A DNA stretch of 64,000 bases from Brevibacillus laterosporus. GTDB taxonomy: Bacteria; Bacillota; Bacilli; Brevibacillales; Brevibacillaceae. The stretch covers positions 2,846,001 to 2,910,000 of the forward strand of contig CP033464.1 in assembly GCA_007833815.1 (NCBI GenBank), given 5' to 3'. A program made the translations under genes and the position numbers. Shown here piece after piece: positions 23,613 through 53,170 of the stretch (positions within the stretch are counted from its first letter, which is position 1; each line of letters starts with the position of its first letter). A model generated the notes under the pieces. It was given only the letters and a program-made list of their open reading frames with translations. It did not search any database and was not told the origin of the DNA.

Positions 23613-24659
23613 ATGGAAAAAGAAATAAAATGCGTGATTTGGGACTTGGACAATACGATTTGGGAAGGGATTTTGCTAGAATCCTCCCATGTTCAGCTTC
23701 GTCCCGGGATTGTGGAGATTATCAAAGAATTAGACTCACGTGGTATCCTGCATTCTATCGCTAGCAAGAATGATTTTGAGTTAGCGTACGAAAAGCTGAA
23801 GGAGTTTGGGATCGCTGAATATTTCCTCTATCCCCAGATTAATTGGAATGCCAAATCAGCGAATATCTCTACTATACAAAAAAACGTAAATATCGGCATA
23901 GATACCATCTTATTTATTGACGATCAACCGTTTGAGCGTGACGAGGTAAGTAGCGTTCATTCACAAGTTACTTGCATGAGTGATACTGAATATACAAATC
24001 TTATTTATCATCCTCGTCTCAACCCTACATTTATCACGGAAGATTCGAAAAGACGTCGACATATGTATCTGGAAGATATCATACGTAACGAAGAAGAACA
24101 ATCATTTGTGGGGCCGCAAGAATCCTTTCTCGCTTCTCTTGAGATGAAGTTTATCATCTCAGAAGCACAAGAAGAAGATCTCAAACGCGCTGAAGAGCTA
24201 ACCATTCGTACCAATCAATTGAACTCAACAGGGATTACCTATGATTATGATGAACTGAACGCTTTTCGCACCAATGATAAATATAAATTATTTGTATGTG
24301 AACTCACGGATAAGTACGGATCTTACGGCAAAATTGGATTATCACTTGTGGAAATAACCGAGGAAGCATGGCATGTCAAGCTTCTTCTCATGTCTTGCCG
24401 GGTCATGTCTAGGGGTGTTGGTACGGTACTTCTTAGCCATATTATGCAAGAAGCCAAGGAAGAAGGAAAAATGTTGCTTGCTGACTTCCGCAAGACAGAC
24501 CGGAACCGCATGATGTACGCGACTTACCGCTTCGCTAACTTCAAGGAAATTTCTTCTGATGATGAAGGGAATGTCGTTTTCGAAAATGATTTGTCTATGA
24601 TTCAACCGTTTCCGCCTTATATCTACGTAAAAGTAAATCACGTTATCAAAAAGAGATAA
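23613..24659 (+). CDS. FkbH-like HAD-family glyceryl-ACP synthase (ZmaN-like)
   Basis: 348 residues from the ATG with GGGAG upstream. HAD motifs are complete: nucleophile in VIWDLDNTIWEG, motif II in SIASKND, and the acidic pair in LFIDDQPFERDEV. The C-terminal half (VMSRGVGTVLLSHIM) is GNAT-like, as in other FkbH proteins. These enzymes take 1,3-bisphosphoglycerate and load a dephosphorylated glyceryl group onto an ACP, the first step to hydroxymalonyl- or methoxymalonyl-ACP. No O-methyltransferase is nearby, so hydroxymalonyl is the likely end point. It is the first gene of the operon; the carrier is probably the ACP at 25873. Confidence 0.93.
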   Translation: MEKEIKCVIWDLDNTIWEGILLESSHVQLRPGIVEIIKELDSRGILHSIASKNDFELAYEKLKEFGIAEYFLYPQINWNAKSANISTIQKNVNIGIDTILFIDDQPFERDEVSSVHSQVTCMSDTEYTNLIYHPRLNPTFITEDSKRRRHMYLEDIIRNEEEQSFVGPQESFLASLEMKFIISEAQEEDLKRAEELTIRTNQLNSTGITYDYDELNAFRTNDKYKLFVCELTDKYGSYGKIGLSLVEITEEAWHVKLLLMSCRVMSRGVGTVLLSHIMQEAKEEGKMLLADFRKTDRNRMMYATYRFANFKEISSDDEGNVVFENDLSMIQPFPPYIYVKVNHVIKKR

Positions 24660-24688
24660 TAAAACGGAAAGAACAGGAGATATACCGT

Positions 24689-25837
24689 ATGAAGATAAGT
24701 GTGCAACAATCAGATATTTTAGTTGAAGTGGAGCGATTTTCTGAAGAAAGGATTCATCCATACGCGAAAGAGTTTGAGTTGAACGAAGAATTGCCCTCTG
24801 AACTTATTAGGGAAATGGGGGAGAAAGGATACCTCACTGCCAGTATTCCCAAAGAGTACGGAGGTCTAGGTCTTGATCCAGTGCAATTTGGACTGTTTAT
24901 AGAGCAAATAGGGAAATCCTGCAATTCCATACGTGAATTGATTACCGTTCACAACTCGCTCGTAGGTGAAACGATTGTGCGATGGGGAACGAAAGAGCAA
25001 AAAGAGAAATGGCTCCCGTTAATGACGCAAGGCAAAAGAATAGCCGCTTTTGCACTCAGTGAACCTAATGTAGGTACAGATGCTAGAAATGTAGAGACAC
25101 ATTATCGAAAAGAAGGTAACCAGTACATGATCACAGGGGTGAAAAAATGGATTTCCTTCGCCGATATTGCAGACGTATTTCTCGTCATTGCGGCTCATGA
25201 AGAGGAAGGACAAGTCACTGCTTTTTTGGTGGAGCGCGAATGGGAAGGGATAAAAACGACACGTATGACCGGACTGTTGGCAAGCAAGGCATCTCATATC
25301 GCAGAAGTTGAATTTATGGACGTTGTGGTTCCAGCAGAAAATGTGCTTGGCCCTGTTGGTGGAGGGTTTAGCTACATTGCCTCATATGGGCTTGATCACG
25401 GACGCTATAACATCGCTTGGGGAGCTGTAGCGATTGCTCAAGCTTCACTGGAAGCGATGATCTCCTATTCGCGTAAGAGGACACAGTTTGGGAAGAAGCT
25501 GTGTGAGTTTGACCTCATGCAGGCGATCATTGCTGATGCGACAACAAAAATTCACGCAGCGCGCGCTCTTTGTCTCCATGCTGGAAGGATGCGATTGAAG
25601 AGGGATCCTGATTCGATAATGGAAACCACCATGGCGAAATACTTTTCTTCGAAGATGGTAATGGAAGTAACCACGGATGCAGTGCAAGCACATGGTGGAA
25701 ATGGTTTTTCCAACCAGTATCCGGTGGAGCGCTTCTTCCGCGAAGCCAAGCTTCTAGAAATTATCGAGGGAACATCACAGGTTTTGCAACTCATGATTGC
25801 CCAACATTCGATAAGCAAAAACTATGAAAAGCGATAA
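24689..25837 (+). CDS. Acyl-CoA dehydrogenase-family enzyme (ZmaE-like)
   Basis: 382 residues, full length for the flavin-dependent acyl-CoA dehydrogenase family. Signature parts are FALSEPNVGTDARN in the FAD region, KASHIAEVEF, and IIEGTSQVLQL near the end with the usual catalytic Glu. In the zwittermicin pathway two such enzymes act on ACP-bound substrates and oxidise the aldehyde formed by the 3-hydroxyacyl dehydrogenase, giving hydroxymalonyl- or aminomalonyl-ACP. Beside the FkbH gene and the first ACP, this copy most likely serves the glyceryl-derived branch. Which paralogue serves which branch is inferred from order only. Confidence 0.88.
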   Translation: MKISVQQSDILVEVERFSEERIHPYAKEFELNEELPSELIREMGEKGYLTASIPKEYGGLGLDPVQFGLFIEQIGKSCNSIRELITVHNSLVGETIVRWGTKEQKEKWLPLMTQGKRIAAFALSEPNVGTDARNVETHYRKEGNQYMITGVKKWISFADIADVFLVIAAHEEEGQVTAFLVEREWEGIKTTRMTGLLASKASHIAEVEFMDVVVPAENVLGPVGGGFSYIASYGLDHGRYNIAWGAVAIAQASLEAMISYSRKRTQFGKKLCEFDLMQAIIADATTKIHAARALCLHAGRMRLKRDPDSIMETTMAKYFSSKMVMEVTTDAVQAHGGNGFSNQYPVERFFREAKLLEIIEGTSQVLQLMIAQHSISKNYEKR

Positions 25838-25872
25838 AATTCATAACCAATAAATGAATTGAGGGATGAGTG

Positions 25873-26127
25873 ATGACGGTACGGGAAAAAGTACGCCAAT
25901 TTATTGAAAGTAATCTTGTAATCTTTGAAGATCATGTCGAAATTAGCGATGATGACAATATCTTTGAACTTGGCTTTGTAAACTCGCTATTTGCTATGAG
26001 AATGCTTACATTTGTTGAGGAAGAATTCGTCATCACCATAGACAATGATGAACTTGACCTTATAAATTTTAGTTCCGTAAGCAATATCGTGCGTTTAATT
26101 GAGAAAAAACTAGGAACAAGAGTGTAA
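25873..26127 (+). CDS. Acyl carrier protein for hydroxymalonyl unit (ZmaD-like)
   Basis: 84 residues with the four-helix carrier pattern. The phosphopantetheine Ser is in LGFVNSLFAMRM, where the usual Asp before Ser is Asn. The second carrier of the operon shares this unusual V-N-S-L-F-A block, so both belong to the FkbJ/ZmaD type. It would hold the glyceryl and then hydroxymalonyl group. ATG at 25873 is seven bases after GAGGG; a GTG at 25870 is possible. A 116-base gap without a gene follows. Confidence 0.9.
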   Translation: MTVREKVRQFIESNLVIFEDHVEISDDDNIFELGFVNSLFAMRMLTFVEEEFVITIDNDELDLINFSSVSNIVRLIEKKLGTRV

Positions 26128-26243
26128 TGCTGCTTTCTTTTCTGATCTTCGTTGGATAGGAGGGTATTGTAGACGGCATAGGAGAGTGGCACAAAATGAA
26201 CAAAGATTCATGTTAAAACAACAACTTATAAGGGAGAAAAAAT

Positions 26244-27470
26244 ATGTTGAACTTAATCTTCATGTTTCCAGGAGTGGGCTCCCATTATTTTGGAATGGGT
26301 AAAACACTTTATGACAACTTTCCAGTGGCGAAGCTCGCTTTTGAAGAAGCCAGTGACGCCGTAAAAATTGACTTAGCTAAGCTATGTTTTTCTCCTGACT
26401 ACAAAGATGAACTGCAAAAATTAAAAAATTCGCAAATAGCTCTTGTTTGTGTTGGTGTGACAACTTACCGAGTTTTTATGGAAGAAATGGGGATTTCGCC
26501 AGCTTTTTCGATGGGATATAGTCTGGGGGAGTATTCGGCACTTGTTTGTGCGGGTGCGATTCAGTTTGGGGATGCTCTTCAAATGGTGCTGGAACGTGGT
26601 GATGTTGTAAATGATGTAGCTAAGAGGATCGCAGGTACGATGGCTTGGGTGACAAATATTGATTCACAAACCGTTAAGAAGATTTGTGAGGAAGTATCGC
26701 AAGCAGGAGACGAAGTATATGTATCCGCCTACGACTCACCTCTTAAAACATCTATCTCAGGGACTAACATTGCCATTCGCAAAGCGGGAGAGAAAGTTGT
26801 CGAAGCCGGCGGAATTGCCATCCCGATAAAAATGTCAGGTCCGTTTCACAGTCCGCTGATGAAAGAGGCTGCGAACAGCTTCCAAGGAATTTTGAGCAAT
26901 TATAACTACCAACAGCCGCAATATCCGGTCATATCTAATTACACCGCACATCCGTTCACAGATCGCGCAAGTATTTCCAAAAATCTAGCATTGCAGCTCG
27001 TTTCACCAATTCGTTGGCAAGAATCGCTACACTATGGGCTTTCGCTAGGAGCCGACATAGCAATCGAGCTTGGACCGAAAACAGTGCTGAAGTATCTGCT
27101 GGAGAATAATACGAAGGAATTTCCCGTATATTCGTTTGACAAAGCTCAAGACCTACAGGTGATAAAAAATGCTTTCTTTTTCACGGAAGAAGAGTACATG
27201 CCCCTTATTGCCAAGTGTCTCGCAGCAGTGGTAAGCACTAAAAACTATAACAAGAACAATAATGAGTATGAGGAATCAGTTGTGCAAACATTTGAACAAG
27301 TGCAAAACATGTATGAGCAGTTGGCGGAAACCAAGACTCTGGCACAAAAAGAACATGCGGTAGCCGCAATCAATATGCTCCAATCTGCATTACTAGCAAA
27401 GAATCTGCCTGAGGGGAAACGTGCATACCAAGTGAAAAAAGTGCTTGGGCATAAGAATTTTTCGAACTAG
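26244..27470 (+). CDS. Discrete trans-acting acyltransferase (ZmaF-like)
   Basis: 408 residues. The first 300 are a malonyl-CoA:ACP transacylase-type fold: FMFPGVGSHYFGMG at the start, nucleophile Ser in MGYSLGEYSALV, and the second catalytic His in SGPFHSPLM. The last 110 residues form an extra helical region not present in FabD. In zwittermicin A synthesis the equivalent ZmaF moves aminomalonyl from its ACP to the PKS. Here one PKS module has an AT that lost its Ser (gene at 39330), so this enzyme probably loads that module. Placement between the two extender-branch gene groups supports this. Confidence 0.88.
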   Translation: MLNLIFMFPGVGSHYFGMGKTLYDNFPVAKLAFEEASDAVKIDLAKLCFSPDYKDELQKLKNSQIALVCVGVTTYRVFMEEMGISPAFSMGYSLGEYSALVCAGAIQFGDALQMVLERGDVVNDVAKRIAGTMAWVTNIDSQTVKKICEEVSQAGDEVYVSAYDSPLKTSISGTNIAIRKAGEKVVEAGGIAIPIKMSGPFHSPLMKEAANSFQGILSNYNYQQPQYPVISNYTAHPFTDRASISKNLALQLVSPIRWQESLHYGLSLGADIAIELGPKTVLKYLLENNTKEFPVYSFDKAQDLQVIKNAFFFTEEEYMPLIAKCLAAVVSTKNYNKNNNEYEESVVQTFEQVQNMYEQLAETKTLAQKEHAVAAINMLQSALLAKNLPEGKRAYQVKKVLGHKNFSN

Positions 27471-27509
27471 CTTACAATCACTTTGTTATACAAAAAGGAG
27501 AATGATAGA

Positions 27510-28364
27510 ATGCTTCAAAATATAGGTATCATCGGATCAGGAACAATGGGGATTGGTATGGTTGTCGATCTTGCCCTTCACGGAATTAGGTCCGTTCTCG
27601 TAGATGTATCGGAAGAAACGTTGGAAAAGGCGAAAAAAGAGATATTACATACGGTTCGTTTCGCTCCCTTGGTTAAGAAGGACGTAAAGAAAATGACTCC
27701 AGAGCAAGTAATAGAGCTGGTATCTTTTACGACTACTTTAGAAGATGTTGGAGAATGTGATTTTATTGTAGAAAATGTAACGGAAAACTGGGAGATAAAA
27801 CATGCAGTCTATATGGAACTAGATCGTATTTGTAAACCGGATGTATGCTTTGCAGTCAATACTTCTTGCATCTCCATTACAAAGGTTGGTGGTGTGACGA
27901 AGCGCCCTGATAAGGTTATCGGCATGCACTTTATGAACCCTGTTTTTATGAAGCCTTCCATTGAAGTTATTAAAGGTTGTTTTACGTCACAAGAGACCAT
28001 CGATATTGCGGAATCGTTCCTCTCACAGTTGGACAAAGATGCAATTATCGTCAATGACTTACCTGGATTCGTATCCAATCGCATTTCTCACCTATTTATG
28101 AATGAGGCAGCATTTGTAGTGCAAGATCAAGTAGCGACGCCCAAGCAAGTAGACGAGATTTTTAAAAAATGCTTCGGACATACTATGGGTCCACTTGAAA
28201 CGGCAGATTTAATAGGCTTGGACACGGTACTGGATTCTTTGGGAGTGTTGTATGACAACTACCAGGATTCAAAATTTCGCGCGGCTCCACTTCTTCGCAA
28301 AATGGTGGATGCAGGATTGTTTGGTAGAAAAGCTGGAAAAGGTTTTTACGATTATTCGAAATAA
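27510..28364 (+). CDS. 3-hydroxyacyl-CoA dehydrogenase-family enzyme (ZmaG-like)
   Basis: 284 residues from the ATG at 27510 (AAGGAG upstream). N-terminal Rossmann motif GIIGSGTMGIGM binds NAD; the catalytic His is in IGMHFMNPV, with NTSCISIT before it and NDLPGFVSNRI after it, as in 3-hydroxyacyl-CoA dehydrogenases. In the zwittermicin pathway one such enzyme oxidises the primary hydroxyl of both glyceryl-ACP and seryl-ACP to the aldehyde. The single copy between the two branches fits a shared role. Confidence 0.9.
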   Translation: MLQNIGIIGSGTMGIGMVVDLALHGIRSVLVDVSEETLEKAKKEILHTVRFAPLVKKDVKKMTPEQVIELVSFTTTLEDVGECDFIVENVTENWEIKHAVYMELDRICKPDVCFAVNTSCISITKVGGVTKRPDKVIGMHFMNPVFMKPSIEVIKGCFTSQETIDIAESFLSQLDKDAIIVNDLPGFVSNRISHLFMNEAAFVVQDQVATPKQVDEIFKKCFGHTMGPLETADLIGLDTVLDSLGVLYDNYQDSKFRAAPLLRKMVDAGLFGRKAGKGFYDYSK

Positions 28365-28397
28365 TAAAGCCAGGTAAAAGAGAGAGGATGAATCTTT

Positions 28398-28646
28398 ATG
28401 ACGACGTTAACAACTGAAAAAATGATTAGCGATTACATTTTGGAGCATGTAAACGTTGAGGAGCTGGACTATGATCTTCTGATTTTTGATGAAGGGTTGG
28501 TCAATTCTTTATTCGCAATTCAACTCATGACATACCTTGAAAAGACGTTCAGTATCAAAATTACGATGGATGATCTGGATTTTGAGAACTACCGCTCCAT
28601 TAACGCTATTTCTAATTTTGTGAAAAGCAAACAGAGCGGGGTGTAA
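28398..28646 (+). CDS. Acyl carrier protein for aminomalonyl unit (ZmaH-like)
   Basis: 82 residues. Carrier Ser is in EGLVNSLFAIQLM, again with Asn in place of the common Asp. It has the same length and block as the ACP at 25873 but diverged flanks, as expected if each is recognised by its own loading enzyme. With the Ser-activating adenylation protein at 29823 it should form seryl-ACP, oxidised to aminomalonyl-ACP. The next gene starts two bases after the stop. Confidence 0.9.
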   Translation: MTTLTTEKMISDYILEHVNVEELDYDLLIFDEGLVNSLFAIQLMTYLEKTFSIKITMDDLDFENYRSINAISNFVKSKQSGV

Positions 28647-28648
28647 GC

Positions 28649-29815
28649 ATGCTTACTTTGTTGACTACTAATCAAAAGGGCTACTACGATCAATTTCTTA
28701 CATTCGCTCAAGAACATGTAGAACCATACGCAAACCAGTGGGACAACTCCGAGAAAATCCCGCAGGATATCATCGACAAGTCTGCGAAGGCAGGCTTTCT
28801 TGGAGGAACATTGCCTGTCGAATACAAGGGTCAGGGATGGGACTTTGTTACTTATGGATTGCTGAACGAAGCTATTGGCCGTTTCAGCATTTCTCTCAGC
28901 GGGTTGTTTAACGTACACACAATGGTTGCGCACACACTGTTGAAATGGGGAACAGAGGAACAGAAATCACGTTGGCTTCCACCTCTCTCTACAGGTAAAA
29001 AAATCGCAGCTCTGGCGCTGACCGAACCAGGAGCGGGCAGTGATTTGCAAATGATGGAAACCAGTTATACGGAGCAGGGCGATTATTTTCTCTTAAACGG
29101 TAAAAAGCAGTGGATTACCTTTGGTGCAGCTGCAGATGTTCTACTCGTCTTTGGAAAGATGGAAGGAAAACCTGTTGCTTGCCTCGTTGAAAAAGACACA
29201 CCGGGATTGACTATCACACCAATTCGAGGAATGCTTGGCTTCAAAGCGTCTCATTTGGCGATTTTAGAATTCAATAACTGCGTGATTCCAAAGGAAAATA
29301 TGGTTGGTAAACCAAACTTTGCGCTGTCTTATCTCGCTCCTTACGCACTAGAATTCGGTCGCATTAGCATCGCTTTTGCTTCGCTAGGGCTTTTGCGAGG
29401 TTGTTTGGAAATCTGCGGTTCTCATGTAATGGAACGAAAAGCGTTTAACGCCCGCTTAATCGATCACGGAATGATTTCACATTTTATTGCTGATATGGGT
29501 GTTGATTATGAAGCAACCGCTCATCTCTGCATTGCATCTTGTAAGGCGAAGGATGAACATTCGCCGGAAGCTACTGAAAAAATCATGATTGCCAAATACT
29601 TCGCATCCCGTGCTGGAGCTAGACACTCTGCTAACGCAGTCCAGATTATGGGCGCGATGGGGTGCAACGAGGACTTTTCGGTTTCTAGATTTTACAGAGA
29701 TTCCAAGACGATGGAAATCGTGGAAGGCAGTAATCAGATTCATCAGATGATTCTTGGCTCAAGCTTTGCCAAAAAAGCGAGAAGAACGCTGGTTAGCGTG
29801 AAAACAGAAGGGTAG
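28649..29815 (+). CDS. Acyl-CoA dehydrogenase-family enzyme (ZmaI-like)
   Basis: 388 residues of the acyl-CoA dehydrogenase family, a diverged paralogue of the product at 24689. ALTEPGAGSDLQ is the FAD-region signature, GFKASHLAILEF follows, and IVEGSNQIHQM near the end holds the catalytic Glu position. By order it belongs to the aminomalonyl branch: coupled to the second ACP two bases upstream and to the Ser adenylation gene eight bases downstream. It would finish the conversion of seryl-ACP to aminomalonyl-ACP. Confidence 0.88.
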   Translation: MLTLLTTNQKGYYDQFLTFAQEHVEPYANQWDNSEKIPQDIIDKSAKAGFLGGTLPVEYKGQGWDFVTYGLLNEAIGRFSISLSGLFNVHTMVAHTLLKWGTEEQKSRWLPPLSTGKKIAALALTEPGAGSDLQMMETSYTEQGDYFLLNGKKQWITFGAAADVLLVFGKMEGKPVACLVEKDTPGLTITPIRGMLGFKASHLAILEFNNCVIPKENMVGKPNFALSYLAPYALEFGRISIAFASLGLLRGCLEICGSHVMERKAFNARLIDHGMISHFIADMGVDYEATAHLCIASCKAKDEHSPEATEKIMIAKYFASRAGARHSANAVQIMGAMGCNEDFSVSRFYRDSKTMEIVEGSNQIHQMILGSSFAKKARRTLVSVKTEG

Positions 29816-29822
29816 AGTCCAT

Positions 29823-31415
29823 ATGAGCAAATCGAACTTATTTGTTTCCGATTCCGATAGACAGCAAATCATGTTCATGCTTAGCAATACCAAAGCGGAT
29901 TATCCCATAGATAAAACGATCTATCAATTATTTGAAGAACGGGTGGCTGTTGCACCAGATGCGATTGCTGCCATTTGCAAGGATCAAGCGATTACTTATC
30001 AAGAGTTGAATAACAAAGCAAACCAATTGGCGAGACATATTCGCTCTCACGGTGTAGATTCTGATCATATCGTGGCAATCATGCTAGAGCGTTCACTTGA
30101 AATGATTATAGGTATCTTTGCCATTATGAAGGCAGGTGGCGCATACTTGCCAATTACACCGTCCAATCCTGAGAAGCGGATTCGCTATATGCTGGAGGAC
30201 AGCGGCTCTAAGCTGATGTTGACCAAAGGGAACGTCATGCATTCGTATGACATACCGACAATTCATGTTGATAATGAGAATCTTTACAAGGGTTGCTCTG
30301 ATAATCTGTCATTGGTTAATGACCCGAAAGATCTTGCTTATGTTATTTATACATCGGGTTCGACTGGAAAACCAAAAGGTGTAATGATTGAACATCACTC
30401 TCTGGTGAATCGATTACACTGGATGCAGCACGCCTATCCTATCGATGTGAATGATACGATTATGCAAAAAACGCCTTTTGGCTTCGACGTCTCTGTATGG
30501 GAAATGTTCTGGTGGTCTATGGTTGGAGCAAAGGTCTGCTTCCTGTTACCTAATTTTGAACGTTTTCCGCAAGCGATTGTAGAGACTGCCCGGAAGAATC
30601 AAATTAGTGTGATGCACTTCGTACCTTCTATGATGAACGCTTTTCTAAATTATCTTCAAGACGCAGGTGATGAAGAAATTCATCGATTGCGTTTCTTGAA
30701 ACGCGTTTTTGTCAGTGGGGAAGCCTTAACACCTATCCATGTGAAAAAATTTAATCAAATTCTGTATGAAACCAACGGAACCAGACTGACAAACTTGTAT
30801 GGACCGACGGAAGCGACAATCGACGTAACCTACTATGATTGCCCGGTGGATGGGGTAATCAAGAAGGTTCCGATTGGAAAACCGATACACAACACAAGCA
30901 TGTATATTGTTGAAGAAGATCAATTGCAACCGTTTGGAGAGTCAGGGGAGCTATGCATCGGTGGAGTAGGGCTTGCCCGCGGCTATTTGAATAATCCAAC
31001 CCTGACGTCGGAAAAATTCGTTGACAATCCGTTTATACCTGGAGAAAAGATGTACAAGACTGGAGATTTGGCTCGTCTGCTTCCCGATGGAAACATTGAA
31101 TATATGGGGAGACTGGATCATCAGGTGAAAATCCGAGGATTACGAATCGAACTTGGCGAGATTGAAGCGACAATAGCCGATTACGATGCGATCGATCAGT
31201 GTATTGTAACGGTCAATGAACAATCAGAAACAATCGTCCATCTTGTGGCATATGTGGTTCCAAAAAGAGAGTTTGCGGTAGCCGACTTAAAAAAATTTGT
31301 CAAAGACCGCTTACCTGAATACATGGTTCCCAGCATTTACATAACGCTTGAATCGTTGCCGTTAACTTCCAATGGCAAGATTGATCGAAAATCTTTGCCT
31401 GATCCGCAAGCATAG
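29823..31415 (+). CDS. Stand-alone serine adenylation domain (ZmaJ-like)
   Basis: 530 residues, one NRPS adenylation domain without carrier or condensation part. Core motifs: YVIYTSGSTGKPKG (A3), NLYGPTEATID (A5), YKTGDLAR (A7) and NGKIDRKSLP with the A10 Lys. The specificity residues I read are D-V-W-H-F-S-L-I-D-K (from FDVSVWE, MHFVPS, VFVSGEA, LYGPTEATID), the serine code known from EntF. It would activate L-Ser and load the ACP at 28398 for aminomalonyl formation. The C-terminal end PDPQA is short, so no PCP was lost. Confidence 0.93.
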   Translation: MSKSNLFVSDSDRQQIMFMLSNTKADYPIDKTIYQLFEERVAVAPDAIAAICKDQAITYQELNNKANQLARHIRSHGVDSDHIVAIMLERSLEMIIGIFAIMKAGGAYLPITPSNPEKRIRYMLEDSGSKLMLTKGNVMHSYDIPTIHVDNENLYKGCSDNLSLVNDPKDLAYVIYTSGSTGKPKGVMIEHHSLVNRLHWMQHAYPIDVNDTIMQKTPFGFDVSVWEMFWWSMVGAKVCFLLPNFERFPQAIVETARKNQISVMHFVPSMMNAFLNYLQDAGDEEIHRLRFLKRVFVSGEALTPIHVKKFNQILYETNGTRLTNLYGPTEATIDVTYYDCPVDGVIKKVPIGKPIHNTSMYIVEEDQLQPFGESGELCIGGVGLARGYLNNPTLTSEKFVDNPFIPGEKMYKTGDLARLLPDGNIEYMGRLDHQVKIRGLRIELGEIEATIADYDAIDQCIVTVNEQSETIVHLVAYVVPKREFAVADLKKFVKDRLPEYMVPSIYITLESLPLTSNGKIDRKSLPDPQA

Positions 31416-31447: not shown

Positions 31448-34400
31448 ATGGCATATTCAGAAAAAATAAGCAGAAATAACGTTGAAGATATCATGGGGCT
31501 GTCTCCCCTGCAAGAAGGGATGTTATTTCACTTTTTAAAAGAGCCTGAATTGGAGCAGTATCATGAGCAACTGTCGCTGATGATTTCAGGAAAGTTGGAT
31601 TTAGCCCTTTTTAAACAAGCTTGGAACGATGTCATTCAAGCTAATGAAATGTTACGAACTCTATATAGATGGAGAGAAGTTAATCAGCCCGTTCAAATCA
31701 TCTTAAAGGAGCATCAGCTAGCATTTGATTATTACGATTACTCTGACTTAGATACTACTGAGCAAACAGAACGGATTGCTAAACAAAAAGAAGCGGATCT
31801 TCGGAAACAATTTACTCTTCTAGAGGTTCCTTTCCGGATTGAGCTTTATAAAATGGCTACTGACCGTTATCAAATGGTAATCAGCAATCACCACATCTTG
31901 TATGACGGATGGAGTAACGGCATTATCTTACAAGAATTTTTTCAACGATACCACAGTTTGGAGATAGGACAGCTCTCCTCGTTACCACGCAAGCCTAAGT
32001 ACAAGGAATACATCAAATGGTTGGAAAATCAAGATCATGAAAAACAGAATGCTTTTTGGAAAGAGTATTTGGAAGGTTTTAATACGCAGACTTCGCTTGC
32101 GATTAAAAAACGTAATGCTGTAAAGAAAGGGGATGTCGTCAAGCACAAGATCACGTTGGATCATTTCGTGGCATCGCAAATCGCATCATTTTGCAAAGAA
32201 CACCAAGTCACGGTGGCGTCACTGTTCTACGCAGCATGGGGACTTCTGCTCAATCGATACAACAATACGGATGACGTGATTTTTGGTACAACGGTTTCAG
32301 GACGCTCGGGAAATATTGAGGGTCTCGAAAAAGTCGTTGGACTGTTTATTAACACGCTTCCGCTTCGTTTTAAAACAGATACTGAAAAAGATCTACTTTC
32401 TTATACCAAACAAGTCAACCAAGCCATTCAACTAAGAACCCAATTTGAAAGCACGTCGCTCGTGAATATAAAACAGGCGAGTCAACTTGATAAGAAGGAG
32501 GAGCTTTTCGATACGCTACTCGTCATTGAAAACTATCCGTTAAACAAACAACTGCTTCAGGAGAACCAAGGCTTACGTGTAACTTCATATGAGATTCACG
32601 AGATAACAAATTATGATTTGACAGTTGCAGTGGAATTATTTGAGGAAACTAATATGGTTTTCACCTACGAGCAGACGTTATTTGATCGAGATGTCGTGGA
32701 GCGCATGGCGCAACATTATTCAAGGATTATTGCGCAGATCATACAAAGCCCAACGAAACGTTTTGTCGAGCTAGAGCTTTTTTCTACGGGGGAACTTGAG
32801 GAGCTAGAAGCATGGAATCAAACCAATGCTTGGTATGCCTACGATCAACCGATATATCGACTATTCAGTGAACAGGCAAAGCGTACACCTGAGAAGATTG
32901 CCGTCATTTGCGGTGAAGTAACTCTCACTTATCGTCAATTGGACGAACGTACCAATCAATTGGCACGCACGCTTCGTCAATATGGAGTAGGAGCAGATGC
33001 AATTGTAGGAATTTGCATGGAGCGTTCTGTGGAAATGATTGTCGGGTTGTTAGCGATTGCTAAAGCAGGCGGAGCGTATTTGCCGATTGATCCCAAAATT
33101 CCTCTTGAACGTCTCAGCTATATTCTGGAGGATAGTGGCACGAAGCTGGTTGTCACTCAGCATGAATTTATAAATAAATTCGCTAAGGAATGCGATACTC
33201 TCAATCTGGATGACAAGGACATCTATCACTCTGATGGGAACTCCTTGGATGATATAAGCGGCCCGAGAAATCTAGCCTATGTGATCTATACATCCGGTTC
33301 TACTGGAAAGCCTAAAGGGGTATGCATTGAGCACCACTCAGTCGTAAATCGTTTGAACTGGATGCAAAAGGCCTACCCGATTAGCTCCGAAGATGTGATT
33401 CTACAGAAAACGCCGTATGTGTTTGATGTATCCGTTTGGGAGCTGTTCTGGTGGGCCATGCAGGGAGCGACGGTTTCTTTTCTCGCACCAGGTCAAGAAG
33501 GGAATCCCGAATGCATTGTAGAGACGATTCAACGTGACAAGGTTACGACGATGCATTTCGTTCCTTCCATGCTGCATGTCTTTCTGGAGTTTACCGAAGC
33601 CTTTGACCAAGCAGACAAGCTGAGAAGCTTACAACGAGTGTTTGCTAGTGGAGAAGCATTGGGCGTTCATTTGGTGAAACGTTTCAATTCACTGCTTTAT
33701 GATCGGTATAAAGCGCAATTAATCAATCTGTATGGGCCGACTGAGGCATGCGTGGACGTGTCGTTTTTCAATTGCTCACCTTGGATTGACTATGAAAAGG
33801 TGCCAATCGGTAAGCCGATTGACAATACTCAGTTCTTAGTCCTAGATCGTAATCTTATGCTACAGCCAGTAGGCGTCCCAGGTCAGCTGTGCATTTCGGG
33901 TGTGGGACTTGCTCGCGGATATGCTAACAAACCCGAGTTGACCCGTGAGAAATTCATAGATCATCCGTTCGATACGGGAAAGAGGCTATATCTGACAGGA
34001 GACCTCGCCAGATGGTTGTCGGACGGTAACATCGAATATCTGGGCCGCATCGACTATCAGGTTAAAGTACGCGGATTCCGCATCGAGCTTGGAGAAATTG
34101 AGCATCAGCTGCTTGATTTTCCTAGCATGAAGGAAGTTGTTGTACTGGTAAAACAAGATAAAAAGGAAGACGATTATCTTGTTGCTTACGTGGTGTGCGA
34201 AGAGGAACTAAACGCGGCAGAGGTAAAGCAATTTCTACTGAAACGTCTTCCTGAATACATGGTTCCAAATACTTTTATTCGCATCGAAGAAATGCCTTTG
34301 ACCACCAATGGCAAGCTTGATCGCAAAGCATTGCCTGTTCCACAGGTAACCGAATTGACTCAGAAAGCGACTTATGTTAAACCACAAACAGAAATAGAAC

Positions 34401-35827
34401 GGAAGATCGCCGATATTTACAAGGAAGTACTAGAAGTAGAGAGTGTTGGTTTATACGATAACTTCTTTGACATCGGTGGAAATTCGCTGAAGCTGATTCG
34501 TATATACAGTCGACTCAGCAAGGCTTTGGGAAAAGAACTGACAGTCGCAACACTATTTCGCTATCCGACAGTAGCTTCGCTCACTCAATATCTGGCACAA
34601 GCAGATACAGAGATAGAGAAGGAGGCAAAGGATACCAAGCGAAAGCTGTCACGTCAATTAAACCAAGAATCTCCACATGGAGTGAATGACGGAAAGGGTC
34701 AGGACGTCGCTGTGATTGGGATGGCGGGACGGTTCCCAGGAGCAAAGAATATTGATGAGTTCTGGAATAATTTGAAAAATGGGATCGAAAGTATTCGTTT
34801 TTTCACGGATGAGGAACTTCTTGAAGCAGGGGCTGACACTGAGTTGATAAAGCGCTCAAACTATGTGAAGGCAAAGGGCTATCTTGACGATTTCGAATAT
34901 TTTGATGCCTCCTTGTTTGACTATATGCCAAAAGAAGCGGAATTGATGGATCCACAATTGCGACTACTGCATGAGTGCGCTTGGGAAGCATTGGAACATG
35001 CAGGTTACTTAAGCGATGAAAGTCCTGACCGTATCGGTACATTCGTTGGGGCATCTTCCAATTTTCATTGGCTCCATCAGGTGGCACGCCAAAACCAAAA
35101 CTCGCTGGAAGAGTTTTCTGCGATGCTACTTAATGAAAAGGACTTTTTTAGCACTCGCCTTTCCTACAAGTTAAACCTGAAAGGACCAAGTGTGACAGTG
35201 CAAACCGCATGTTCGACATCTTTGGTAGCGATTAATATGGCTTATCAGGAACTGATTCAAGGGAACTGCGAGATTGCAATTGCTGGGGGTGTTGGGATTA
35301 CTTATCCACCAAAAACGGGATATTTATATGAGGACGGAATGATTCACTCCCCTGATGGCCACTGCCGTGCGTTTGACAAGGATGCCAATGGAACGATTGG
35401 CGGGAACGGTATTGGGATTGTCGTGTTGAAGAGGCTTCATGCTGCAGTGTTAGATGGTGACACAATCCATGCAGTCATAAAAGGGGGAGCGATCAATAAT
35501 GATGGAATAGATAAGGTCGGATTTACTGCCCCTGGGGTGACAGGACAAGCGGCAGTCATTCATGAAGCGCAGATACAGGCAGCGATCGAATCGGAAAGCA
35601 TCAGTTACGTAGAAGCGCATGGAACAGGGACTGCACTAGGCGATCCAATTGAGCTTGAAGCATTACGACTAGCCTTTCAAACAGATAAAAAAGGATACTG
35701 CGCAATCGGTTCAGTAAAAACTAACATCGGTCATCTCGATGCCGCTGCTGGCGTAGCCGGCTTTATTAAAACAGTACTTTCACTTCAACATGAACTGCTT
35801 CCCCGAGTTTGCACTACAACTCAGTGA
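31448..35827 (+). CDS. NRPS-PKS, first part: C-A(Ser)-PCP-KS (frameshifted)
   Basis: 1459 codons. Condensation domain at about 10-440 with HHILYDG (148-154); adenylation domain at about 475-960 with TSGSTGKPKG near 615 and code D-V-W-H-F-S-L-V-D-K, again serine; PCP with GGNSLKL near 1013; ketosynthase from about 1086 with active Cys in TACSTS, His in EAHGTGT and NIGHLD. The KS breaks off inside its last part, and the frame ends in RVCTTTQ instead of the expected SLHYNSVNP. One missing base in the C run at 35801 restores the frame to the next reading frame. The intact gene would give one protein of about 2630 residues. This module joins Ser to a malonyl-type unit. Confidence 0.93.
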   Translation: MAYSEKISRNNVEDIMGLSPLQEGMLFHFLKEPELEQYHEQLSLMISGKLDLALFKQAWNDVIQANEMLRTLYRWREVNQPVQIILKEHQLAFDYYDYSDLDTTEQTERIAKQKEADLRKQFTLLEVPFRIELYKMATDRYQMVISNHHILYDGWSNGIILQEFFQRYHSLEIGQLSSLPRKPKYKEYIKWLENQDHEKQNAFWKEYLEGFNTQTSLAIKKRNAVKKGDVVKHKITLDHFVASQIASFCKEHQVTVASLFYAAWGLLLNRYNNTDDVIFGTTVSGRSGNIEGLEKVVGLFINTLPLRFKTDTEKDLLSYTKQVNQAIQLRTQFESTSLVNIKQASQLDKKEELFDTLLVIENYPLNKQLLQENQGLRVTSYEIHEITNYDLTVAVELFEETNMVFTYEQTLFDRDVVERMAQHYSRIIAQIIQSPTKRFVELELFSTGELEELEAWNQTNAWYAYDQPIYRLFSEQAKRTPEKIAVICGEVTLTYRQLDERTNQLARTLRQYGVGADAIVGICMERSVEMIVGLLAIAKAGGAYLPIDPKIPLERLSYILEDSGTKLVVTQHEFINKFAKECDTLNLDDKDIYHSDGNSLDDISGPRNLAYVIYTSGSTGKPKGVCIEHHSVVNRLNWMQKAYPISSEDVILQKTPYVFDVSVWELFWWAMQGATVSFLAPGQEGNPECIVETIQRDKVTTMHFVPSMLHVFLEFTEAFDQADKLRSLQRVFASGEALGVHLVKRFNSLLYDRYKAQLINLYGPTEACVDVSFFNCSPWIDYEKVPIGKPIDNTQFLVLDRNLMLQPVGVPGQLCISGVGLARGYANKPELTREKFIDHPFDTGKRLYLTGDLARWLSDGNIEYLGRIDYQVKVRGFRIELGEIEHQLLDFPSMKEVVVLVKQDKKEDDYLVAYVVCEEELNAAEVKQFLLKRLPEYMVPNTFIRIEEMPLTTNGKLDRKALPVPQVTELTQKATYVKPQTEIERKIADIYKEVLEVESVGLYDNFFDIGGNSLKLIRIYSRLSKALGKELTVATLFRYPTVASLTQYLAQADTEIEKEAKDTKRKLSRQLNQESPHGVNDGKGQDVAVIGMAGRFPGAKNIDEFWNNLKNGIESIRFFTDEELLEAGADTELIKRSNYVKAKGYLDDFEYFDASLFDYMPKEAELMDPQLRLLHECAWEALEHAGYLSDESPDRIGTFVGASSNFHWLHQVARQNQNSLEEFSAMLLNEKDFFSTRLSYKLNLKGPSVTVQTACSTSLVAINMAYQELIQGNCEIAIAGGVGITYPPKTGYLYEDGMIHSPDGHCRAFDKDANGTIGGNGIGIVVLKRLHAAVLDGDTIHAVIKGGAINNDGIDKVGFTAPGVTGQAAVIHEAQIQAAIESESISYVEAHGTGTALGDPIELEALRLAFQTDKKGYCAIGSVKTNIGHLDAAAGVAGFIKTVLSLQHELLPRVCTTTQ
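35801..35804 (+). other. Frameshift site inside a ketosynthase (CCCC run)
   Basis: With one added C the codons would read Leu-Pro-Pro-Ser-Leu-His-Tyr-Asn, exactly like the two other KS domains of the operon (QLPPTLHFN and QIPASLHFE). With four C the frame ends 23 bases on. Both parts are otherwise intact, so this is one deleted base, either in the DNA or in the reading of a homopolymer. Confidence 0.92.
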
Positions 35828-38800
35828 ATCCAAAAATCGATTTTGCAAACAGTCCATTTTTTGTAAATAATCAGATCACCGCATGGCAACGAGGAATAAT
35901 CCCACGTCGCGCAGGTGTCAGCTCATTTGGCATGGGTGGTACCAATGCCCATGTGATTCTAGAAGAAGCACCAAAAGCCGTCAATTACCCTGAGAATCGT
36001 GATTGGAAGCTACTAATGCTTTCAGCTAAAACCGAAACTGCCTTGAAAAAGGCGGCAGAAAATTTACAGAGCTATCTAAATGCCAAGCCTGACGTAAACC
36101 TTTCAGATGTTGCCTATACATTACAGGTTGGACGCAAAACCTTTCCATATCGAAAAGTGATTGTGGCAAATCATGCCCAAGAGGCGGCTGTGTTGCTTGG
36201 TCTCCCAGATATGGATAAGGTGATGACCAAACAAGTTGCCAAGCGTAATCGTTCTGTTACGTTTATGTTTTCTGGACAGGGTTCACAGTACATCAATATG
36301 GGGCTCAGGTTGTATCAAAAAGAAGAATTATTCCGTACTATCGTGGATACCTGCTCTGAATTACTCAGACCTATAATTGGCTACGATATACGGGAAATCA
36401 TCTATCCGTCTGAACACAAAATGGAATGGGCGTCTGAAATGTTGACGCAGACGGAAGTGACACAGGTTGTTCTCTTTACGGTGGAATATGCTTTGGCGCA
36501 AACATTAATGAAATGGGGTATACAGCCACAGGCAATGATCGGTCACAGCATCGGTGAATACGTTGCAGCTTGCATAGCAGGTGTGTTCTCACTAGAAGAT
36601 GCGCTAAAACTGGTGACGATGCGAGGCAAACTCATGCAGTCAATGCCAACAGGGGCGATGCTCAGTGTACGACTCACCGAATCAGCTCTTCTTCCGCTTA
36701 TTCCTGCGGATGTGTCACTAGCCGCAGTAAATAGCTCAGCCTTATGTGTCGTTTCAGGAAGTCATGAAGCGATTGAGACATGCAAAGCATTGTTAATAGA
36801 AAAAGGAGTAGAGCACAGTCAGTTGCATACTTCTCATGCTTTCCATTCAGCGATGATGGAGGGAATATTGACTGAGTTTGAATCGGTGGTTCGCACGATT
36901 GAACTTCGTGAGCCGAAGATTCCCTATCTCTCTAATGTGACAGGTACTTGGATTTCTATAGAGGATGCGACTGACCCCATGTATTGGGTGAAGCATTTGC
37001 GAGGAACGGTTAAGTTTGCTACAGGTGTCAAGGAACTGTTGGACAACGAGCAAGCCATGTTTATTGAGGTAGGGCCAGGGCGCGTACTCAGCATGTTTGT
37101 TCATCGACACGCCGACAAAAAACCGAACCACTTTGTCACCAACTTGCTACCTCATCCACAGGAACAAATTGCTGAAGATTTGCTTTTTTATAGAAAAATA
37201 GCTCAGTTATGGCTGGAAGGTGTACAGATAGATTGGCGTGCATTCTATGAAAATGAACAGCGGAGAAGAATTCCGCTTCCTGCTTATCCGTTTGAACGGA
37301 AACGCTTTTGGACGTGGACGGAAGCTACTCCTACCTCCAGTAAAGCTCATAATCTTTTGCAAGAAAACGTGATTGGCAAAAAAACGAATATAGCAGATTG
37401 GTTTTATGTACCCTCATGGGAACGAGTCAATTTGCCTGAAGTTGAAGAAAATCGTCTCGCTTTGGAATCCGTGCTAATTTTTGCAGACGAAACTTCGATA
37501 AGCCAGTGTTTGCTAGAAAAACTCCAGCAGACAAACTCAAATATTGTCGTTGTTCGTACAGATACTATGTATTGCAAATTAAACGATCGCAGTTTTGCAA
37601 TCCATCCGTGTGAAGCAAGCCACTATGACGAGATGCTCCGTGAGATGAAAGAAACGGGATTTACACCAACCAAGGTGTTGCACCTGTGGAGTTTGAGCGA
37701 GGGAGAGTATCATGGGCTTGATTGGAAACGAGTAGAGCTAACGCTCGATGTCGGATTTTACAGTCTCGTTTCTTTTGCACAGGCTCTCGGTAGACATATG
37801 ATTACCGATCCGCTTGATATTCTTGTCGTGACCAATAACACACAAGAGGTAACAGGGGAGGAAGAGCTACAGCCTGAAAAAGCGACGGTGCTTGGATTTG
37901 TTAAAATTGCACCTTTAGAATACTCCAATCTCCAATGCCGCAATATTGATATTCTATGTACCTCAGAGCCTCGTAAGCAGGAAAAAGTGGTTCAACAACT
38001 ATTAGAGGAGCTGGAGATTGTATCAGAGGATAAAGTCGTCGCCTATCGCAACAATTATCGATGGGTACAGATTATGAAAAAATCATACAGGGAATCTCTC
38101 ATGACGACCCCGCGACTCAAACGGTATGGAGTTTACCTGATAACGGGTGGCATGGGCGGTATGGGCTTTGCCATCGCTAAAGACTTTGCCAAGACCTATC
38201 AAGCCAAGCTGATTCTGATTGGCCGTTCGGAATTTCCGACACGTGAAAAATGGAATAATTGGCTAAACAGCCATGCAGAAGATAACACAGTCAGCCAAAA
38301 AATCAGAGAGATTCTCCTATTGGAAAGCTATGGAGCAGAAGTTTTCATTGCCAGAGCGGATGTATCGAATCAACTGCAAATGGCTGAGGTCATCCATTGT
38401 GCGATTGAGCGTTTCGGTGGAATCAACGGTGTGGTTCACGCTGCTGGAATTGCCGACTATGCAGGATTAATTCAAAATCGGACGCGTGAAACGGTCGAGA
38501 CAATTCTCGCACCGAAGATACAAGGAACGCTTACCCTTGATTATCTGTTGAGTGAACAAAAGCTGGATTTTTTCATCCTCTGCTCCTCCATAGGTAACGT
38601 TTCCTATCATCGCAAGATCGGACAAGTCGCCTATAACGTAGCGAATGAATTCCTTGACGCCTATGCCTTCTATAAAACGGCACGCGACGGCGTTTACACC
38701 GTGGCAATTAACTGGCCTGATTGGCAAGAGGTGGGAATGTCTATTGAGTCGGCAAAATATTGGGCGAAAGCTCTCAACAGTAATGTGGAGGCCATACTCC

Positions 38801-39333
38801 AAGACGGATTGAGTCCATCTGAGGGAGTGGAAGTTCTCAAACGTGCTTTGCACAATTCTTCTCCACAGGTGGTGGTCTCGTCGGAAGACTTGATTAAGAA
38901 GCTTGCTGAAGGCTCTGCACATTTCCAAGCCGTATTGGAAAAAGGACAGTTTTCACGTGAAATAAGTCAGCGTCCAGAACTCTCCACCCACTACGTCGCC
39001 CCGAAGAGTGAAATTGAAGGAAAGCTTGCGAATATTTGGCAAAAGATGTTCGGCATTGAGCAAGTCGGTATACATGATAACTTCTTTGATTTAGGAGCAA
39101 GCTCGCTCGACTTGATACAGGTTAATAGAAGGGTAAAAGAATTGCTCAACCTTGATATATCGGTTGTGACGATGTATGAATACCCGACGATTGCATCACT
39201 TGCCGCTTATTTAAGTCAGGAAATGTCGGCGGATAAACAGGTAACGCGGGAGCAAATAAAATCGGATGAGTTGAACAAATCTAAACAACTCATGAAGAGC
39301 ACAATATTAAAAATGGGGCGGTCCACAAAATGA
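35809..39333 (+). CDS. NRPS-PKS, second part: KS end-AT(malonyl)-KR-ACP
   Basis: 1174 codons; the TTG at its 5' end is not a real start but the continuation of the preceding KS. KS end (NSPFFVNNQ, GMGGTNAHVILEEAP), then AT with FMFSGQGSQ, nucleophile in IGHSIGEYVA (about 244) and HAFHS (about 342), the pattern of malonyl-CoA-specific AT. Then KR with GVYLITGGMGGMG (about 774), Ser in LCSSIGN and Tyr in AYNVAN; no LDD motif is present, so an A-type hydroxyl is more likely. ACP at the end with LGASSLDL (about 1099). The product overlaps the next gene by four bases (ATGA). Confidence 0.92.
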   Translation: MHYNSVNPKIDFANSPFFVNNQITAWQRGIIPRRAGVSSFGMGGTNAHVILEEAPKAVNYPENRDWKLLMLSAKTETALKKAAENLQSYLNAKPDVNLSDVAYTLQVGRKTFPYRKVIVANHAQEAAVLLGLPDMDKVMTKQVAKRNRSVTFMFSGQGSQYINMGLRLYQKEELFRTIVDTCSELLRPIIGYDIREIIYPSEHKMEWASEMLTQTEVTQVVLFTVEYALAQTLMKWGIQPQAMIGHSIGEYVAACIAGVFSLEDALKLVTMRGKLMQSMPTGAMLSVRLTESALLPLIPADVSLAAVNSSALCVVSGSHEAIETCKALLIEKGVEHSQLHTSHAFHSAMMEGILTEFESVVRTIELREPKIPYLSNVTGTWISIEDATDPMYWVKHLRGTVKFATGVKELLDNEQAMFIEVGPGRVLSMFVHRHADKKPNHFVTNLLPHPQEQIAEDLLFYRKIAQLWLEGVQIDWRAFYENEQRRRIPLPAYPFERKRFWTWTEATPTSSKAHNLLQENVIGKKTNIADWFYVPSWERVNLPEVEENRLALESVLIFADETSISQCLLEKLQQTNSNIVVVRTDTMYCKLNDRSFAIHPCEASHYDEMLREMKETGFTPTKVLHLWSLSEGEYHGLDWKRVELTLDVGFYSLVSFAQALGRHMITDPLDILVVTNNTQEVTGEEELQPEKATVLGFVKIAPLEYSNLQCRNIDILCTSEPRKQEKVVQQLLEELEIVSEDKVVAYRNNYRWVQIMKKSYRESLMTTPRLKRYGVYLITGGMGGMGFAIAKDFAKTYQAKLILIGRSEFPTREKWNNWLNSHAEDNTVSQKIREILLLESYGAEVFIARADVSNQLQMAEVIHCAIERFGGINGVVHAAGIADYAGLIQNRTRETVETILAPKIQGTLTLDYLLSEQKLDFFILCSSIGNVSYHRKIGQVAYNVANEFLDAYAFYKTARDGVYTVAINWPDWQEVGMSIESAKYWAKALNSNVEAILQDGLSPSEGVEVLKRALHNSSPQVVVSSEDLIKKLAEGSAHFQAVLEKGQFSREISQRPELSTHYVAPKSEIEGKLANIWQKMFGIEQVGIHDNFFDLGASSLDLIQVNRRVKELLNLDISVVTMYEYPTIASLAAYLSQEMSADKQVTREQIKSDELNKSKQLMKSTILKMGRSTK

Positions 39334-49613: not shown

Positions 49614-49812
49614 AAGAGAGAGGAACGCCTGAGATGACTAGGTTTCTTACTTTGTCTAAGACTGAAAGGGATTCCTATCTTATTGAACAATGAGTGAACC
49701 GATTGCAAATAAAGAAAGTAAAAACATGTAGGACAAGCCTGGGAGGATGGTGCTTCCTGCACCATCCGGCTATGTCCGCCCAGTGATGAAGGGAAGCAGG
49801 AGGGAACATATT

Positions 49813-50847: not shown

Positions 50848-50906
50848 AATCATGTATAACCCAATGAGAAAAGCCATGTTCAATATTTTTAGGAGGAAGA
50901 TTGGTT

Positions 50907-53102: not shown

Positions 53103-53170
53103 AATGGACATAACACATGTGGCATGCTACGCAGGAGAAGGAGAACTTCTTATCGGGGGAGATGCAATCA

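Follow-up and report, generated by a model that had tools for sequence, protein, structure and literature searches.

Eight consecutive genes at positions 23613–31415 of a 64,000 nt stretch of Brevibacillus laterosporus DNA (contig CP033464.1, positions 2,846,001 to 2,910,000; the whole stretch is called the window here), together with the polyketide synthase (PKS) and nonribosomal peptide synthetase (NRPS) genes that follow them, very probably form a zwittermicin-type system, in which a cassette makes two extender units bound to acyl carrier proteins (ACPs) for a zwittermicin-like chain. This level of confidence applies to the cassette and the core; the proposals for the starter and for product release, given below, are much less sure. 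The reading is a sequence-based one (gene content, gene order, motifs, adenylation codes and conservation), and the reactions of the individual enzymes are assigned by analogy with characterised enzymes of the zwittermicin (zma) cluster.

All genes described here lie on the forward strand, and those of the cassette were named by Pfam and NCBIfam. The first encodes an FkbH-type HAD phosphatase/glyceryl transferase (ZmaN-like; 23613..24659; TIGR01686 266 bits, cut-off 147); an in-frame ATG is found at 23613, and the mechanically called open reading frame (ORF) opens upstream of it, at a TTG (23541). Then come acyl-CoA dehydrogenase 1, assigned to the hydroxymalonyl branch (ZmaE-like; 24689..25837; Pfam), ACP 1 (ZmaD-like; 25870..26127; PP-binding), a discrete acyltransferase (AT; ZmaF-like; 26244..27470; Pfam, motifs GYSLG, GPFH and IAI), a 3-hydroxyacyl-CoA dehydrogenase common to both branches (ZmaG-like; 27483..28364; 3HCDH_N and 3HCDH), ACP 2 (ZmaH-like; 28398..28646; PP-binding), acyl-CoA dehydrogenase 2, assigned to the aminomalonyl branch (ZmaI-like; 28649..29815; Pfam), and a stand-alone adenylation (A) domain (ZmaJ-like; 29823..31415; AMP-binding 302 bits). 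The initial annotation had proposed eight consecutive genes of these types, and all are present in one direction, in an order slightly different from the one it listed.

In the following, G000 is the genome carrying the window, G001–G005 and others are comparison genomes, and L-numbers denote fetched loci. A smaller contig of G000 matches a B. laterosporus plasmid (86.6% identity across 86% of the 12 kb compared), in line with the B. laterosporus group. The stand-alone A domain has the code DVWHFSLIDK, which is identical in all five homologues. Both this code and DVWHFSLVDK, that of the first NRPS downstream, are taken by us to specify Ser, and a Ser-specific stand-alone A domain, as first annotated, is supported on that understanding. 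The zma subcluster is described as containing two ACPs, two acyl-CoA dehydrogenases, one 3-hydroxyacyl-CoA dehydrogenase, FkbH and a Ser A domain (PMC6395733), and these are found together in the window, along with a discrete AT whose three motifs are those printed for ZmaF, which is specific for aminomalonyl-ACP (Tables 2 and 3 of PMC4207774). Among five aligned homologues of this AT, GYSLG and GPFH are invariant and IAI is kept in four (IPI in G188). A Pfam scan of the 15 cluster proteins detected no methyltransferase domain; an O-methyltransferase elsewhere in the genome was not searched for. Gene content, Ser code and the lack of a methyltransferase domain in these proteins agree with the earlier proposal of a complete two-branch cassette, for aminomalonyl- and hydroxymalonyl-ACP, of the zwittermicin type. 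SolG of the solanimycin pathway heads the NCBIfam list for the A domain; solanimycin was dropped as a candidate because, according to its paper, that pathway has no aminomalonyl genes.

All eight cassette genes recur in G002 in identical order (84–92% identity; FkbH 91%), and the ratio of nonsynonymous to synonymous substitution rates (dN/dS) between G000 and G002 is 0.048–0.119 for the eight genes, indicating an arrangement beyond chance. G002, G135, Kroppenstedtia guangzhouensis (G225) and Marininema halotolerans (G188) all carry this gene set in almost the same order, FkbH standing at the distal end of the cluster in the last two. Identity of FkbH is 62–71% in G135, G225, G188 and L051. The full cassette had been annotated as rare, and a survey of the discrete AT in 399 Bacilli genomes, with the four best candidates per genome scored, bears this out: it was found at 46% identity or above (46–100%) in five, these being the window's own genome, G002, G135, G225 and G188, and in a further 33 genomes that gave a match at E < 1e-60 the identity was at most 41%. 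L051, a contig of a metagenome-assembled Clostridia genome, carries most of the cassette and a ZmaK-like gene, with no dehydrogenase 1 of its own within 21 kb. The zma cluster itself was not recognised in plasmid searches (including tblastn), among eight named contig loci or in the Bacilli sample.

Judging from identities, loci with a single branch separate the hydroxymalonyl from the aminomalonyl genes. Five (L018–L022) of the 12 fetched loci L011–L022 (19.9 kb each; L011 and L012 are G002 itself) contain the 3-hydroxyacyl-CoA dehydrogenase, FkbH, an ACP and an acyl-CoA dehydrogenase without a discrete AT; their dehydrogenase is 50–58% identical to dehydrogenase 1 versus 31–38% to dehydrogenase 2, and their ACP is nearer to ACP 1 than to ACP 2. 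The dehydrogenase of L017 also leans towards dehydrogenase 1 (49 versus 38%), as does that of L014, weakly (45 versus 41%), and L013, L014 and L017 additionally contain an AT at 31–33% identity. Two of the eight named loci (about 21 kb each), from Paenibacillus sinensis (L053) and P. tritici (L054), have the discrete AT, the 3-hydroxyacyl-CoA dehydrogenase, an ACP, an acyl-CoA dehydrogenase and the A domain, and no FkbH. Here the dehydrogenase is 56–59% identical to dehydrogenase 2 versus 34–36% to dehydrogenase 1, and the ACP is nearer to ACP 2. Dehydrogenase 2 is matched at 56–71% identity in five of the eight named loci, the remaining three having generic acyl-CoA dehydrogenases (29–32%) and no cassette. 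The 3-hydroxyacyl-CoA dehydrogenase occurs in loci with either branch alone.

Following the cassette, a PKS/NRPS line extends to 58903 (Pfam). Its first protein, ZmaK-like, is encoded in two halves, the first consisting of condensation (C), A(Ser), carrier (T) and ketosynthase (KS) domains (NRPS1; 31448..35827; code DVWHFSLVDK), and the second of AT(malonyl), ketoreductase (KR) and ACP (35809..39333). The AT of the second half has GHSIG and HAFH, as printed for the malonyl-CoA-specific ZmaK-AT in PMC4207774, and, by eye, EHS where ZmaK-AT has KTT. The large ZmaA-like PKS (39330..49613; Pfam) has the order KS-AT remnant-KR-ACP-KS-AT(hydroxymalonyl)-KR-ACP-C. Its first AT reads GFGIG and is without the catalytic Ser or the downstream His motif, so that this module needs an AT in trans; at the same position, G135, G225 and G188 have no AT motif at all. 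The second AT (GYSFG, HAAH, LCM) differs little from the motifs given for ZmaA-AT, specific for hydroxymalonyl-ACP (GYSFG, GAAH, MCM; PMC4207774), and among PDB sequences its best match is ZmaA-AT (4qbu, 491 bits), the next chain scoring 255 bits. A crude pattern for the Tyr-Asn motif found it kept in all three KR domains of the window; the same kind of pattern caught one of two KRs in each of the large PKSs of G135, G225 and G188. The modules read in the order Ser, malonyl, aminomalonyl (AT in trans) and hydroxymalonyl, with a KR in each PKS module, which is the order of the zwittermicin polyol. The code of the first NRPS A domain is the same in three of five genomes (window, G002 and G135). 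The homologues in G225 and G188 (L044 and L047) have a non-Ser code, DMWNTGMVHK, and given this code these two may start the polyol from another amino acid.

In the proposed pathway, FkbH would load a glyceryl group onto ACP 1, and the shared 3-hydroxyacyl-CoA dehydrogenase with dehydrogenase 1 would convert glyceryl-ACP 1 to hydroxymalonyl-ACP 1. The stand-alone A domain would load Ser onto ACP 2, and the shared enzyme with dehydrogenase 2 would convert seryl-ACP 2 to aminomalonyl-ACP 2. The discrete AT would serve the PKS module with the dead AT, and the ZmaA-like AT would take hydroxymalonyl. Ser and malonyl first, and then aminomalonyl and hydroxymalonyl, would give a 4,8-diamino-2,3,5,7,9-pentahydroxynonanoyl chain, which we take to be the chain of zwittermicin A.

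The precursor of zwittermicin is larger than the product and bears an N-terminal acyl-D-Asp, which ZmaM takes off (PMC4207774). A tree of 40 C and epimerisation (E) domains, built without support values, places the NRPS1 C domain among C domains preceded immediately by an E domain, namely the five of that kind in a large NRPS of this genome; for this reason the NRPS1 domain probably expects a D-configured donor. G000 has, at C4:3118820-3126436, about 214 kb past the cluster end, a C-A-T-E starter (code DLTKIGEVGK, presumably Asn) that ends in a TPSDF docking tail and, after it, a beta-lactamase-family peptidase/ABC protein. The locus (here locus A; L085, G000:C4:3112063-3126436) holds a two-module NRPS ending in a thioesterase (TE) (codes DLTKVGHIGK and DVFYLGGICK), the C-A-T-E starter and the 1031 aa peptidase-ABC protein. 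The starter/peptidase pair is likewise preceded by a two-module TE-ended NRPS in G002, G004 and G005; in G001 and G003, covered by the peptidase search alone, the best matches were a 51% homologue, which lies near another G001 cluster, and a partial one at 35%. Locus A was seen in four of the six genomes of the genus, those with the core or its remnants. A second starter/peptidase pair of G000, with an acceptor NRPS alongside, lies at 1295377-1302982, which counts against a fixed link of locus A to the cluster. This second starter and peptidase, the acceptor NRPS and a nearby cysteine-synthase-like gene (L082–L084; G000:C4:1295377-1325378) would represent a further, putative prodrug-type NRPS cluster.

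At the other end of the line are a luciferase-like flavin monooxygenase (49747..50847; PF00296 140 bits), proposed to act in oxidative chain release, a discrete BtrH/C39-like acyltransferase or peptidase (50901..51920; Peptidase_C39_2 30.6 bits, cut-off 24; BtrH_N 23.3 bits, below its cut-off of 29.7) and, after an acetyltransferase gene described below, NRPS4 (53117..58903; Pfam), which consists of a partial C-A1-T-C-A2-T without TE. The two NRPS4 codes, DGQDLAAVDK and DVLNLALVIK, resemble those of the last NRPS in G135 (DAQDVAAVDK, DVNNLALVIK), G225 (DAQDIAAVNK, DVINLALVIK) and G188 (DAQDIAAVNK, DVPNLSLVFK). Close to the cluster, each of these three relatives has a carbamoyltransferase (56, 100 and 30% identity, respectively, to the G225 query), as ureidoalanine synthesis would need, and because the codes are similar part of the line's end may be zwittermicin-like. 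The three look able to carbamoylate a precursor and G000 does not, although the A code hardly changes. Candidate substrates of A1 are ureidoalanine, Gln and diaminopropionate. A diaminopropionate-synthase-like gene is linked to the cluster in G188 only; it is on another contig in G135 and unlinked in G000 and G002, and none above 34% identity was found in G225. The initial annotation had described the final NRPS modules as looking unlike zwittermicin, which the codes do not demonstrate, being similar in three relatives with a nearby carbamoyltransferase. The clear differences from zwittermicin are absences: the window has no starter, prodrug peptidase or TE tail, and the genome has no dedicated carbamoyltransferase. 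A new product, as was also suggested, is plausible.

In zwittermicin biosynthesis, a C-terminal pyruvyl-Leu-Met is left when ZmaL cuts at the Ala bound to ZmaB (PMC4207774). For the window cluster, the best guess, by analogy, is that the last residue is oxidatively split to an amide. The monooxygenase gene directly follows the NRPS4 gene in G135, G225 and G188; in the window and in G002 it lies between the large PKS and BtrH genes, and in the window two genes separate it from NRPS4. The BtrH-like protein is 43% identical to the front of a TE-ended tail NRPS of G225 and is fused likewise in G135; in both, a BtrH-like domain (below the Pfam cut-off) is followed by a carrier domain, then by three or four NRPS modules, and at the end by a TE. 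Among six aligned sequences the N-terminal Cys is present in five (the sixth begins after it) and the His in all six, and the comparison with PDB sequences gave no meaningful match. The tail NRPS of G135 (L086, 4855 aa) has the BtrH-like domain in front, four modules and a TE, and three of its four A codes are identical (DFWNIGMVHK).

The gene between those for the BtrH-like protein and NRPS4 encodes a ZmaR/PamZ-family N-acetyltransferase (GNAT; 51936..53102; PF12746 167 bits). It is likely a self-resistance enzyme of the ZmaR type, judging from its Pfam family and from PamZ as the nearest solved structure. The best PDB match, 7b3a (E 1.4e-43), is PamZ of Paenibacillus larvae, which provides self-resistance to paenilamicin and is 31% identical to ZmaR (PMC9054821). 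Compared with PamZ, the protein from the window is longer by about 100 residues and shows a TPR end-of-group match (residues 328–376) that is just at the cut-off. In G004 (L093/L094, G004:C1:3335001-3370000) and G005 (L095, G005:C31:1-20000, on a short contig of 23 kb) an intact copy (377 aa, 79–81% identical) stands beside broken NRPS4 and BtrH fragments, and G005 also has broken fragments of the monooxygenase and the large PKS. Neither genome has a near match to the discrete AT (best 35–36%) or to dehydrogenase 2 (best 33–34%). The dN/dS of the acetyltransferase is 0.085 between the G004 and G005 copies and 0.128–0.136 against G000 and G002. Its retention where the pathway has been lost, in two sister species, looks like resistance outliving production; the remnants differ between G004 and G005, so that part of this selection may predate the loss of the core.

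Several observations weigh against a working zwittermicin-type pathway in this strain, or against parts of the assignment. Direct protein comparison with zma was limited to ZmaA-AT, the other enzymes being compared through printed motifs and the gene list. The more distant FkbH loci do not separate the two dehydrogenases, and the branch assignment therefore rests on the nearer loci: in L013, L015 and L016 the identities to dehydrogenases 1 and 2 are within about 1% of each other, and in the plasmid loci L025 and L026 they are about equal (46 versus 48% and 40 versus 41%), the dehydrogenase of L027 being slightly nearer to dehydrogenase 1 (42 versus 40%). None of the 33 window ORFs scanned, which included every ORF of at least 230 aa, encodes a starter module, a D-residue peptidase or a tail, and no TE was found by Pfam in the 15 cluster proteins, NRPS4 ending in a carrier domain. 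No dedicated carbamoyltransferase was found in G000 or G002; each has two distant ones (39% and 28–30% identity to the linked one of G225), inferred to be housekeeping enzymes. Locus A survives intact in G004 and G005 despite the loss of the core there, which counts against a fixed link between the two. Finally, the ZmaK-like gene of G000 is frame-broken at about 35.8 kb (window 35800–35830), so that, barring a sequencing error at this point, the strain may be unable to make the product. The split KS/AT gene was also considered as a natural two-protein arrangement, and this was rejected because the gene is a single ORF in four relatives (G002, G135, G225 and G188).

The frame break, the lack of a starter and tail in the window, and the loss of the core in the sister genomes G004 and G005 with the acetyltransferase intact would all fit a decayed zwittermicin-type pathway that yields no product in the G000 strain and of which only the acetyltransferase still matters. 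This is possible, if doubtful: dN/dS against G002 is 0.048–0.153 for 15 genes or gene parts (covering 2896 of the 3427 codons of the large PKS) a range that holds on both sides of the break, and the ZmaK-like gene is whole in G002. That the FkbH branch makes methoxymalonyl-ACP, as in FK520-type pathways, in a cluster that is not zwittermicin-like, is highly improbable. FkbH, an ACP and a dehydrogenase pair are common to methoxymalonyl pathways (PMC6395733), but the scanned cluster proteins lack a methyltransferase domain, and of the ATs with a solved structure ZmaA-AT, which is hydroxymalonyl-specific, is by far the nearest to the PKS AT.

The ends of the line can be read in more than one way. 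NRPS1 might take a D-residue from another cluster and NRPS4 might hand on to a further NRPS, giving a different, longer or acylated product whose end is not an amide. The post-epimerisation type of the NRPS1 C domain and the carrier domain at the end of NRPS4 point in this direction, as do the separate TE-ended tail NRPSs of G225 and G135 and the TE-ended two-module NRPS in locus A; no acceptor tail adjoins NRPS4 in the window, however, and locus A persists in G004 and G005 after loss of the core, so that such a product seems unlikely. The proposal made here is itself speculative for these parts, namely that the pathway is split over two loci and cut short. An N-acyl-D-Asn starter and the peptidase/exporter would be supplied from the unlinked locus, the tail and TE would be gone, and the flavin monooxygenase alone would release the chain by splitting a sacrificial last residue, leaving a terminal amide; the BtrH-like protein would clear or move the leftover acyl group. 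Lacking a carbamoyltransferase, the pathway could put Gln or diaminopropionate where zwittermicin has ureidoalanine, and so yield an analogue of it; the calculated [M+H]+ is 397.204 for zwittermicin A, 396.209 for the Gln form and 354.198 for the diaminopropionate form.

Few pathways are known to involve aminomalonyl-ACP or hydroxymalonyl-ACP. Together with its counterparts in Marininema, Kroppenstedtia and two further genomes, the window cluster offers natural variants that differ independently in the presence of the branches, starter, tail and resistance gene, and these allow tests of extender-unit routing, of a prodrug starter acting from a distant locus and of product release from an NRPS without TE.

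A zwittermicin match in Brevibacillus has been reported in genome surveys, one of which assigns strain SKDU10 a value of 44 and GI9 one of 11, presumably per cent similarity (PMC8589628), and is also named in PMC10313851 and PMC12503217; in their accessible text, these surveys give the name and at most a score, without cluster anatomy. What they list is very probably this cluster or a relative of it within one species group. No analysis of the window cluster was found in the literature on zwittermicin in Brevibacillus and thermoactinomycetes, which was covered mostly below full-text level and without supplements. The proposed release has a counterpart in myxothiazol and melithiazol, where hydroxylation of the last residue by a flavin monooxygenase is proposed to leave an amide (PMC10204066); the monooxygenase there is a domain embedded in the A domain, with Gly as the residue, as far as that text describes, whereas the window protein is separate and the residue uncertain.

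The zma clusters of Bacillus cereus UW85 and B. thuringiensis share with the window the gene order D-E-(R)-F-G-H-I-J-K (PMC8368016), apart from FkbH, zmaR and a swapped first pair, as well as the AT motifs (aminomalonyl identical, hydroxymalonyl nearly so, and malonyl), the Ser start and a ZmaR-type acetyltransferase. They differ in that the window is without the starter NRPS, D-residue peptidase and TE tail, no dedicated carbamoyltransferase having been found in the genome, in that FkbH is first in the window cassette, and in that the BtrH-like protein of the window is discrete. The acetyltransferase gene of the window adjoins NRPS4, whereas that of zma lies between E and F; the order printed for B. 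thuringiensis HD521 includes zmaE-zmaR-zmaF (PMC8368016), which the position of the gene in G225 and G188, between dehydrogenase 1 and the discrete AT, resembles. With the zwittermicin match in Brevibacillus already listed by surveys, the variant features of the window cluster are the stripped ends and possible split of a zwittermicin-type pathway.

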